Shown here: piece by piece, positions 35,909-39,106 of the stretch
Numbering within the stretch: the first letter of the stretch is position 1
Layout of the letters: each line of letters starts with the position of its first letter
NCBI GenBank assembly: GCA_027031265.1
Contig: JALVRO010000141.1
Span: forward strand, 1-39,106
DNA: 39,106 nt
Direction of reading: 5' to 3'
From: Bacteroidales bacterium
GTDB lineage: Bacteria; Bacteroidota; Bacteroidia; Bacteroidales; S143-33
Made by a program: the position numbers and the translations under genes
Notes under the pieces: model-generated
Seen by the model: the letters and a program-made list of their open reading frames with translations, nothing else
The model's database searches: none
Told to the model about the DNA's origin: nothing

Positions 35909-36670
35909 ATGAATAACAAGCTGAAATATACTGTTTTCCTGCTGATAATCCTTAGTCTTTTTGCCTGCCATAGGGACAAAAAAAACAATGAGCAGGGAAA
36001 GAAAAGTAAGCAATTTGTTGAACAAGATTATTTCTTTCCTCCTGAGTTGTATTATTACCAGGCTCGAAGCGATTATATGATAGACAAACTCTTCCCTATT
36101 GGCTGGTCTGAGGATGGTAATTTTGCTTTTATTGTCGAACCAGCTGTTGAAGGGCTGGATGTATATGTCTTTGAGATGTATGTCATTAACCTTATTAGTG
36201 GGGATACGCTCTGGCACTGGACCACACCTCCAGACCAGGACCTGGTTAGAGAAGAAGTGTGGAAGAATAATTACAATCAGTTCAAGACTATCTTGAATAA
36301 GTACCATGTTATTCAGGATAAAAAGCCACAATTGCTTGCTCCGTATTTTACTTATCAGGGGGATGATTTTAGCATAGAGATGCAGACAGACTTTCGCAAG
36401 GAGCCAGGTTATGGTTTTGAACCTGTCGGTCATACACGTATTATTATCCGTTCTCCACAAAGAGGTGTGAAGGTGGCTTATGATAAAGATTTGCCAAAGA
36501 ATTCTATTATCATTTCGCAGACAATAGCTGGTGTGCTGATCAGCCCTCTCAATGACAAGATAGCTATTATCTTACAGCAGGAAAGACCAGGCTATGAAGG
36601 GCCTCCAAATGTTATTACTTTCCAGATCATTGGTACCAGCCTGGGAGCTGGATGGAGCTATGAAAATTAA
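35909..36670 (+). CDS. Hypothetical lipoprotein
   Basis: 253 aa; 'MNNKLKYTVFLLIILSLFAC' lipobox-like; no recognised family. Confidence 0.8.
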   Translation: MNNKLKYTVFLLIILSLFACHRDKKNNEQGKKSKQFVEQDYFFPPELYYYQARSDYMIDKLFPIGWSEDGNFAFIVEPAVEGLDVYVFEMYVINLISGDTLWHWTTPPDQDLVREEVWKNNYNQFKTILNKYHVIQDKKPQLLAPYFTYQGDDFSIEMQTDFRKEPGYGFEPVGHTRIIIRSPQRGVKVAYDKDLPKNSIIISQTIAGVLISPLNDKIAIILQQERPGYEGPPNVITFQIIGTSLGAGWSYEN

Positions 36671-36672
36671 TT

Positions 36673-36707
36673 AAAAGGCTGCCTATTTTACACAGGCAGC
36701 CTTTTTT
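36673..36707 (+). terminator. Rho-independent terminator
   Basis: AAAAGGCTGCCT-attttacac-AGGCAGCCTTTTTT. Confidence 0.92.
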
Positions 36708-36776
36708 GTCAATTTAGTGTTTTGCTTTTTTGAAAAAAATATTATTTTTAACAAAAAAATAATAATCTTTTTTATT

Positions 36777-37592
36777 ATGGAAATCAAAGATCACATTCTT
36801 TACGGTAAGAATGTCAAAAAAATGATTCCTTCCCCAAATCATGGAGGCGAGTTTAAAGAAGGAGACCTTGACACAATCGTTATTCATTATACTGGAGGGC
36901 CTTATAAGCAGTCTATTAATACCCTGACAAATCCCCGTGTGCGTGCTTCGGCCCATGTCGTTGTCGACCGTGATGGTAGTGTTACTCAGCTGGTACCATT
37001 CAATCTAATAGCTTGGCACGCTGGTAAGAGTTATTACCGTGGACGTACTGGGTTTAATAATTTTTCTATAGGCATTGAGATTGTCAATTCCGGGCCATTA
37101 ACAAAGAGTGGTAATGTCTTCCGTTCATGGTATGGTGAGGCTTTTAGTCCTACAGAAGTAATTGAGGCTGTTCATCGTAATGAGACGCGCCCTCGTTATT
37201 GGCATATATATACTCCAGAACAGATTGAGACAGTTACAGAGCTATCCCAGCTACTTATTGAAACTTATGGACTTAAGTATATATTGGGGCATGAGGAGAT
37301 TGCTCCGGGACGTAAGCTAGATCCAGGACCAGCATTTCCTTTAGACAAACTCCGTGACCGTCTGCTTGGCACACATCGTGATGAAACTGGAGCGCCAGAA
37401 CCACCACAGGCAGGTCGTATAATTGCCAAGAGCCTTAACATTCGTCTTAAGCCTAGTACCACAGCTCCTCTGGTAGCACGTCCTCTGACAAAGGGAACGA
37501 AGGTTATTATCAAGGATGAGCATAACGGCTGGTACAAAGTAGCGGTCACTGTCGAAGGTTGGGTCTTTGGTAAATATGTTGAACCAGAATAA
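36777..37592 (+). CDS. N-acetylmuramoyl-L-alanine amidase (Amidase_2/PGRP-like) with C-terminal bacterial SH3 domain, endolysin-like
   Basis: ORF track starts at 36717, but 36777 ('MEIKDHILYGKNVKKMIPSPNHGG') is the likelier start. 'DTIVIHYTGG', 'SAHVVVDRDGSVTQLVPFNLIAWHAGKSYYRGRTGFNNFSIGIEIVNSG', 'ILGHEEIAPGRKLDPGPAFPLDKLRDRL'; SH3b 'KSLNIRLKPSTTAPLVARPLTKGTKVIIKDEHNGWYKVAVTVEGWVFGKYVEPE'. Confidence 0.93.
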   Translation: MEIKDHILYGKNVKKMIPSPNHGGEFKEGDLDTIVIHYTGGPYKQSINTLTNPRVRASAHVVVDRDGSVTQLVPFNLIAWHAGKSYYRGRTGFNNFSIGIEIVNSGPLTKSGNVFRSWYGEAFSPTEVIEAVHRNETRPRYWHIYTPEQIETVTELSQLLIETYGLKYILGHEEIAPGRKLDPGPAFPLDKLRDRLLGTHRDETGAPEPPQAGRIIAKSLNIRLKPSTTAPLVARPLTKGTKVIIKDEHNGWYKVAVTVEGWVFGKYVEPE

Positions 37593-37606
37593 AAAAGTAC
37601 CTGGCC

Positions 37607-38038
37607 ATGAAAAAAATATATTTCATATTGGGCCTACTGGCTTTGCTGCTAATAGTTGGTTATTTATATAATAAAGGTGTGATAAAGACAGACTGGCAAT
37701 GGCTAACCATAATTCTAGCTGCACTGGCTGGTCCTTATAAACTTATTGAAGATTCTCTTAAAGAAAAAGGTAAACGACATGGCAGGGGCAAAGGTAAGGC
37801 CCAGCAGATCTTGATGCGACAGCTGCAGATAGAAAAAGAAGAAGCAGTGCTGCGCCAGCAGTATGAAGCATTGCTCAAACAGAAAGAGTTAGAGATAGAG
37901 GAGCTCAGAGCTAAACTGCAAAAACTACAGGATCAGCTCGAGCAATTGCAACTAGAACGTAAGCAGATAGAATCCGAGGTACAGTCAATGACTCTGGAAG
38001 AAAAATCCCAGGAGTTTTCTGATTATTTTGGCACATAA
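37607..38038 (+). CDS. Small membrane protein: N-terminal TM hairpin followed by long coiled coil
   Basis: 143 aa; 'IYFILGLLALLLIVGYLYNKG', 'WQWLTIILAALAGPYKLIE', then 'LQIEKEEAVLRQQYEALLKQKELEIEELRAKLQKLQDQLEQLQLERKQIESEVQS'. Confidence 0.8.
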   Translation: MKKIYFILGLLALLLIVGYLYNKGVIKTDWQWLTIILAALAGPYKLIEDSLKEKGKRHGRGKGKAQQILMRQLQIEKEEAVLRQQYEALLKQKELEIEELRAKLQKLQDQLEQLQLERKQIESEVQSMTLEEKSQEFSDYFGT

Positions 38039-38049
38039 AGAATCTATTT

Positions 38050-38484
38050 ATGAAACGAGCAGTTTTTATAGTATTTGTGCTAATTTTGTCTGCTGCCTTA
38101 TGGGCACAGCATTATCCAATATCTGTGGTACCAGGTCAGAAATATACAATTGCACCCAAAGAAGACACACTGTGGGTAATAACAGATAACCAACTGGAGA
38201 GGGCCTTGATAGCTGCTAAACAGCTAGAGAATGCAGATAAACAAATTGTTAATTATCAGAAGCAAATAGAAAATCTCAATGAGCAGTTGCAGCAGACAGA
38301 TACTTTGCTCCTTGAGACCCAGAAGAATATGGAATATTATCGTCGGCAGTGGAAAGATTGTAGTGATAACATAAAGGTTCTGGTCAAAGAGAATGACCGG
38401 GTGAATGCAAAATTTAAAATGGCAAAGATAATCGGAGTAATTTCTACTGTTGCTGCATTTGCACTTGGTGCATATCTTTTTTAG
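38050..38484 (+). CDS. Small exported coiled-coil protein with C-terminal TM anchor
   Basis: 144 aa; signal peptide 'MKRAVFIVFVLILSAALWAQ'; coiled coil 'ALIAAKQLENADKQIVNYQKQIENLNEQLQQTDTLLLETQKNMEYYRRQW'; C-terminal 'IIGVISTVAAFALGAYLF'. Confidence 0.8.
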   Translation: MKRAVFIVFVLILSAALWAQHYPISVVPGQKYTIAPKEDTLWVITDNQLERALIAAKQLENADKQIVNYQKQIENLNEQLQQTDTLLLETQKNMEYYRRQWKDCSDNIKVLVKENDRVNAKFKMAKIIGVISTVAAFALGAYLF

Positions 38485-38529
38485 TCACATTTGAATAAAA
38501 AACAAACGAAACTAAAAATATAACATAAT

Positions 38530-39030
38530 ATGACAACATTACTTCAAATCTTCCCTGATACAGTGCAGTATTATGTAGGACATCCCAAAGAGTTCTTCTG
38601 GTTGGTTTATTTCCCAATCATGGCTTGGATGATTTTGGTACTCGTATTTTTGATTGCACTGTTCATCCGTTACACTTTTGGTAATTGGAGTGTGGAGAAT
38701 CCTAATCCTTATGAAAAAGAAACATTCGGTATGCCACGTGGTACTTTCCGTGGTATATTGACCCTCACATTGTTGTGGGTTGTGGTTGTCCTGGAGCTTG
38801 TTAATGTGCGAGTGGAAGGCTTCGAAGCTCAAATGCATGAACTCATGGTAGCTTTCCAGATGATGATAGGATTTTATTTCGGTGCGAAAGTTATGCATCA
38901 TATCACTGCAGTTGAGAAGACAAAGGCTTTGTATGAATATGGTCCTAGCTATCCAGGAACAGAAAGCTCTGGGTTAACTCCTGCTTCACCTGAGGCCGAG
39001 CAGGAAGAAGAACAGGGAGCCGTTGGTTAA
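38530..39030 (+). CDS. Small three-TM membrane protein with acidic C-terminal tail
   Basis: 166 aa; TM1 'FFWLVYFPIMAWMILVLVFLIALFIRYTFG', 'ETFGMPRGTFRGILTLTLLWVVVVLELVNV', 'LMVAFQMMIGFYFGAKVMHH', tail 'ASPEAEQEEEQGAVG'. Confidence 0.8.
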   Translation: MTTLLQIFPDTVQYYVGHPKEFFWLVYFPIMAWMILVLVFLIALFIRYTFGNWSVENPNPYEKETFGMPRGTFRGILTLTLLWVVVVLELVNVRVEGFEAQMHELMVAFQMMIGFYFGAKVMHHITAVEKTKALYEYGPSYPGTESSGLTPASPEAEQEEEQGAVG

Positions 39031-39057
39031 ACTTGTGTTTTTTAGTTTGACTAAGGG

Positions 39058-39083
39058 AAGGGAGCACCACAGTGGTGCTCCCT
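39058..39083 (+). terminator. Stem-loop, probable terminator of the amidase cassette
   Basis: AAGGGAGCACCA-cag-TGGTGCTCCCTT perfect hairpin; weak T tract. Confidence 0.65.
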
Positions 39084-39106
39084 TTCGTGTTTTGTAGGTT
39101 GTACGA

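Follow-up and report, generated by a model that had tools for sequence, protein, structure and literature searches.

Does a compact operon that joins an endolysin-like amidase gene to three genes for small membrane or coiled-coil proteins belong to a phage, or to the bacterium that carries it? The window, i.e., the whole stretch of 39,106 nucleotides analysed here, is a complete contig (C141) of the Bacteroidales MAG G000 (2.93 Mb, 346 contigs). The operon at 36777–39030 sits at the contig end, which is also the window end; at its other end the contig opens inside a 23S rRNA gene, and a 5S rRNA gene comes next (1–742). A sequence-only reading had proposed a domesticated lysis or envelope-release module or, alternatively, the flank of a phage-derived or contractile-injection locus further right.

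A conserved four-gene module

The four closely spaced, co-directional ORFs described by that reading were present where it had placed them, with intergenic gaps of 14, 11 and 45 bp, and the bounding hairpins at both operon ends are real (Table 1). A GTG at 36717 could serve as the amidase start; all homologues align from the ATG at 36777. The conserved lipoprotein gene upstream, here called up, had been overlooked. Since a terminator lies between this gene and the operon, we treat up as an associated gene and not as a proven operon member; in G000 the two are probably separate transcription units.

Table 1. Features of the operon and its upstream flank (window coordinates)
Feature	Position	Strand	Description
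up (lipoprotein gene)	35909–36670	+	253 aa, lipobox SLFAC, mainly beta fold
Hairpin/terminator, strong, between up and operon	36673–36707 (hairpin 36673–36705)		14 pairs
Amidase	36777–37592	+	271 aa, Amidase_2 + SH3_3, endolysin-type, without signal peptide
CC1	37607–38038	+	143 aa, N-terminal TM hairpin, basic linker, cytosolic coiled coil (predicted)
CC2	38050–38484	+	144 aa, signal peptide, periplasmic coiled coil, C-terminal anchor
TM3	38530–39030	+	166 aa, three-helix membrane protein, hydrophilic C-tail
Hairpin 3' of TM3, T-rich tail, probable terminator	39056–39086	+	14 pairs

We searched 393 genomes of the same order with TM3. Matches were obtained in 34 genomes, i.e., 29 of full type, four variants within a larger protein and one weak match (G030, E=3e-4) that we set aside as chance. 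The full-type cassette was found at 30 loci in 29 of the 393 genomes, with amidase, CC1, CC2 and TM3 together in constant order and on a constant strand, and with median gaps of 16, 3 and 35 bp. HMMs detected amidase, CC1 and TM3 at 30/30 loci and CC2 at 29/30; CC2 in the GC-rich locus L020 was recognised by eye, and the amidase of L128 is truncated by the contig end. A strong cassette-type amidase match occurred in 29/29 cassette genomes and in 0/30 control (non-cassette) genomes (p=1.7e-17, indicative only because the genomes are related). The up gene precedes the cassette at 23 of the 30 loci, about 27 being testable; the contig ends too early at L002, L128 and L130, and other genes occupy its position at L016, L021, L136 and L141. 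Small proteins scattered without the amidase, which the sequence-only reading had named as the finding that would speak against it, were looked for and not encountered, all 30 full-type loci being complete. We conclude that amidase, CC1, CC2 and TM3 form a real conserved module.

The four-gene cassette occurs once more in G000, on a 3.7-kb contig (C245, locus L002, 41–2287) and with 88% DNA identity. The first 40 upstream bases are identical to those of C141, a different hairpin with a T run stands at the matching place downstream of TM3, and a TonB-dependent-receptor-like ORF follows the cassette. C245 may represent either a paralogue or a piece of a related strain that was binned together with G000. 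Between the two copies, dS was about 0.6–0.7 for the four genes but dN/dS only 0.02–0.09, so all four ORFs are real, constrained proteins under purifying selection.

The cassette lies in an ordinary chromosomal setting, and no phage structural genes were found at the loci inspected. Its neighbours depend on lineage (LptD-like/RidA, TRCF, MreB at L127, MBOAT plus esterase); its position is stable within families, and in one genus the same housekeeping position recurs. To the right of the cassette in G002, a sister species of the same genus, lie a small protein gene and then the str/ribosomal-protein operon. No sheath gene was found in G000 with PF04984 and a home-made sheath profile. Given these ordinary flanks, the ribosomal-protein genes rightward in G002 and the lack of a sheath in G000, we reject the proposed phage or contractile-injection flank. 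Of the cassette genomes, 4/29 have sheath genes, on contigs other than that of the cassette, against 1/30 of the controls (p=0.19). We also observed eCIS-like clusters (sheath, tube, spike, PAAR, gp25-like) at L199–L203 in G019, G466, G567, G038 and G029, unlinked to the cassette.

Across loci, no shared cargo gene or lysis regulator adjoins the cassette. Three neighbours were considered as cassette parts and discarded as lineage-specific, i.e., an NMT1_3 substrate-binding gene downstream (four loci, two families), the MBOAT/esterase set (five loci, two families) and a WD40 gene (one locus). At L131, L132, L134, L144 and L145, genes for an MBOAT O-acyltransferase, a DUF459-like protein and an esterase adjoin the cassette, downstream in one family and upstream in the other; a link of this set to wall or polysaccharide acetylation is possible.

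The amidase and the muramidases of variant loci

The amidase combines Amidase_2 (E=4.7e-30) and SH3_3 (E=1.1e-9) domains. Neither an export signal nor a TM segment was predicted, in agreement with the sequence-only reading. Residues H37, E101, H172, K180 and D182 are invariant in eight amidase homologues; from what is known of AmpD-type amidases, we take H37, H172 and D182 to be candidate Zn ligands and E101 and K180 to be candidate catalytic residues.

Matches in phage records had 29–38% identity and covered most or all of the protein, and viral contigs held 68 relatives, the best with 57% identity over residues 1–196 in a 130-kb viral contig. The chromosomal amidases grouped together with support (98/94) in a 99-sequence tree; a single viral sequence fell within this group, and other viral endolysins fell outside it. 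Of the 29 cassette amidases, 27 formed one clade, and two (family f14) stood apart with weak support. By these matches and the tree, the amidase belongs with phage endolysins, as had been suggested. Its descent from a phage endolysin is likely, not proven, because the tree root is arbitrary.

A longer amidase paralogue, ami2 (about 350 aa; many copies have an additional SH3-like stretch; L187–L198, L128:2319–3365), forms a clade separate from the cassette amidases. It occurs in about 13 of the 29 cassette genomes and in none of the control genomes, and it directly adjoins the cassette in G567. On one viral contig (L031:3225–7357), tandem genes of WYLNGxxHRIDGPA repeats directly follow an endolysin of the same amidase group.

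In five genomes that lack the cassette amidase, TM3 occurs as a variant that retains the core motif LPxGTVRG...FFxTAFxMMxAFYFG; nothing like the variant was found in viral contigs. In three of the five (L148, L149, L150) its C-tail is fused to a PF11860 muramidase, as called by a Pfam run on L149 and by alignment to L149 for the other two. L151 has a separate PG-binding muramidase gene, then two small ORFs, then TM3; these ORFs are CC1- and CC2-like solely by their topology and position and had no HMM match. Near the variant TM3 of L147 no hydrolase was found. At L150 a DUF5675-like domain is joined to a hairpin that resembles CC1 (E=2e-5), L149 has a DUF5675 protein of the same cluster, and L148 has a CC2-like gene (E=4e-6).

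Muramidases and amidase are mutually unrelated wall enzymes of phage-lysin type, none of them with a signal peptide, and they pair with a TM3-type domain. As read from these gene arrangements, the wall cutter is swapped and the TM3 membrane partner is kept, and this is the strongest functional clue. At L147, L149 and L150 the variant TM3 is followed by a gene for a DUF4230 lipoprotein and one for a membrane-anchored protein of 600–740 aa, a second conserved, uncharacterised gene set.

Predicted topologies of the membrane partners

AlphaFold models TM3 as three long helices (19–49, 70–94 and 99–137; pLDDT 74). By hydropathy alone, the first two score as TM and the third does not, which makes the third pass of the three-TM protein described before a prediction. 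Two motifs are invariant, ..NP...E....PRG..R.. and FYFG.KV.HH. Among 29 homologues the mean K/R count was 0.5 at the N-terminus, 3.9 in loop 1, 0.2 in loop 2 and 3.7 after helix 3, from which an N-out/C-in topology is predicted. For CC1 the corresponding means were 1.8, 0.9 and 5.0 (19 of 30 sequences measurable), which predicts N-in/C-in. The second hydrophobic segment of CC1 and the third helix of TM3 are weakly hydrophobic; the positive-inside distribution and AlphaFold fit a holin-type topology. Class I holins have three TM segments, N-out/C-in, and class II holins two, N-in/C-in (PMC9636201). TM3 would thus have the class I arrangement and CC1 that of class II. These predicted topologies fit a holin–endolysin-like design and would leave the enzymes cytosolic.

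CC2 has a signal peptide ending in ..AQ, a conserved DTLWV motif, a coiled coil and a hydrophobic C-terminal anchor, and lacks a lipobox. The anchor is preceded by basic residues, which is unusual for the periplasmic side. Spanins are laid out either as an i-spanin with an N-terminal TM segment plus an o-spanin lipoprotein, or as a u-spanin, a lipoprotein with a C-terminal TM segment (PMC6139136). CC2, with a signal peptide and a C-terminal TM segment, follows neither layout, and the up product is a lipoprotein but large and folded; the spanin-type partner expected by the sequence-only reading was not borne out. AlphaFold gave the up product a confident beta fold (pLDDT 88), and its motifs are PIGWSxDGxFA and GYEGPP. 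It had no Pfam family, no significant PDB match by Foldseek or by sequence, and nothing in viral contigs.

Searches of Pfam, NCBIfam, PHROGs and PADLOC with TM3, CC1 and CC2 gave no informative match, and phage records contained no relative. Among homologues CC1 and CC2 are highly variable in alignment, and for these two the viral negative applies to phage records. TM3 had no relative in viral contigs, plasmids, PDB or BFVD, by sequence and Foldseek. No holin was matched by TM3 in Pfam, PHROGs, NCBIfam, BFVD or PDB, nor by CC1 in the family libraries. Weak matches of CC1 and CC2 (ADIP, hol-like chemotaxis, a Rz-like spanin at E=0.002, JetC) were dismissed as coiled-coil noise.

Proposed envelope opening, its rivals and known systems

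With about an even chance, we propose that the cassette is a chromosomal, host-owned, endolysin-dependent module for envelope opening or lysis, analogous and not homologous to type 10 secretion. The gene set, its order, the endolysin kinship, purifying selection and the replacement of amidase by muramidase with TM3 retained were observed. Membrane passage, the trigger, lysis and the roles of CC2 and the lipoprotein we infer as follows. The amidase would be made as an active cytosolic enzyme and held back by TM3 and CC1; on some signal, these would let it across the inner membrane, where peptidoglycan would be cut. CC2 and often the up lipoprotein would act in the periplasm or at the outer membrane in a spanin-like or gating role, and some cells would, in a regulated manner, lyse or release cytosolic cargo. 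Gene linkage, endolysin kinship, the lack of an export signal and a fitting topology partly support the domesticated lysis or envelope-release module of the sequence-only reading, in which lysis itself is the presumed step. Against our proposal speak the lack of any sequence or fold match of TM3, CC1 and CC2 to a holin or spanin, the layout of CC2, the strongly conserved charged residues of TM3, unlike a simple hole former, the hydrolase-free surroundings of variant L147 and the absence of a shared cargo or lysis regulator.

The same anatomy would be expected from non-lytic, local peptidoglycan remodelling, the main rival, which we consider rather unlikely; sequence does not separate it from lysis. 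Here TM3, CC1 and CC2 would deliver or gate the hydrolase at an envelope site during growth, division, apparatus assembly or vesicle release, and the cell would survive. Retention within families, the shared housekeeping position in one genus and a wall cutter that is swapped yet kept agree with such a function; the invariant charged TM3 residues suggest a regulated machine, and single-lineage neighbours include MreB (L127) and the MBOAT O-acyltransferase/esterase genes (five loci, two families). However, the hydrolase is predicted to be cytosolic without a signal peptide, the neighbours are not common to different lineages, and occurrence in only about one tenth of the sampled same-order genomes argues against a core growth function. 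That patchy distribution and an inherently lethal enzyme type would also suit abortive infection or altruistic death, in which the cassette kills its host on phage infection or stress. We regard this as improbable, as PADLOC gave no informative match beyond weak coiled-coil ones, defence neighbours do not recur and the position within families is stable.

A cytosolic, AmpD-like wall-recycling amidase with unrelated neighbours is very improbable. The enzyme is a cytosolic Amidase_2 protein with AmpD/AmpDh as the nearest solved structures, but it scored 104.8 bits against the NCBIfam AmpD equivalog, below the 143-bit cut-off, and it bears an SH3 domain. Linkage to three membrane proteins at 30/30 loci, with 0/30 in controls, and the muramidase in its place at variant loci, where TM3 is retained, likewise argue against recycling. 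A decaying prophage lysis block or an eCIS/tailocin flank would account for the endolysin-type amidase, and is hardly credible: barring a prophage past the contig end, it is refuted at this locus by the missing structural and sheath genes, by TM3, CC1 and CC2 without phage matches, by TM3 and the lipoprotein without viral-contig matches, and by the low dN/dS.

To a wider and more tentative proposal we give somewhat less than even weight. TM3 and its coiled-coil partners may form a common, previously undescribed Bacteroidota platform for the control of exchangeable cytosolic wall hydrolases, either the amidase encoded beside TM3 or a muramidase fused to it, and for their transfer or release across the inner membrane. 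It would be either an independently invented holin–endolysin logic or a delivery machine built unlike any holin. A description of such an operon was not found in the open-access papers searched. The amidase/muramidase swap predicts that any wall cutter works with a matching TM3. If the preferred reading, envelope opening, is right, about one tenth of the order's sampled genomes encode an endolysin module under host control with membrane components unlike anything known, and families of membrane proteins that control wall hydrolases would be newly added. The module would be a Bacteroidota counterpart to type 10 secretion and would bear on the release of large cytosolic cargo, public-goods sharing and lysis in these bacteria. 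It probably enables these environmental Bacteroidales to open their envelope, or to burst it, when cued.

Among known wall enzymes, AmpD, AmpDh2 and AmiD share the Amidase_2 fold, with the Zn-site-equivalent residues kept. In contrast to AmpD, the cassette amidase carries an SH3 domain and has membrane partners; AmpDh2 and AmiD are exported enzymes, whereas the cassette amidase lacks an export signal and is nearer to phage endolysins. The loci with PF11860 muramidase or PF18925 (DUF5675) fused to variant TM3 repeat the layout of a TM3-type membrane domain with a wall enzyme, but with an unrelated hydrolase and with DUF4230 genes instead of the up lipoprotein.

Like phage lysis cassettes (lambda S/R/Rz/Rz1), the cassette places a cytosolic endolysin beside small membrane proteins. 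The predicted topology is that of class I holins for TM3 and of class II holins for CC1, and CC2 is, like spanins, a periplasmic coiled coil with a single membrane anchor. Unlike in phages, TM3, CC1 and CC2 are without phage homology, the cassette is not in a phage, CC2 loses a signal peptide by cleavage and is anchored by its C-terminus, and a 250-residue beta-fold lipoprotein stands in contrast to the short Rz1-like o-spanin. Type 10 secretion employs holin, endolysin and spanins outside phages, and lysis-driven release was shown for Yersinia entomophaga (PMC10847048). As in the Serratia ChiWXYZ and Y. entomophaga systems, a chromosomal hydrolase outside a prophage is joined to small membrane proteins with proposed cytosolic release; however, the enzyme is an amidase or muramidase and not a ChiX endopeptidase, the membrane proteins are unrelated, and no linked cargo or ChiR-like regulator was found. 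Because holin and spanin homology and a spanin layout were lacking, we file the cassette under neither system; phage lysis cassettes and type 10 secretion are what it works most like.
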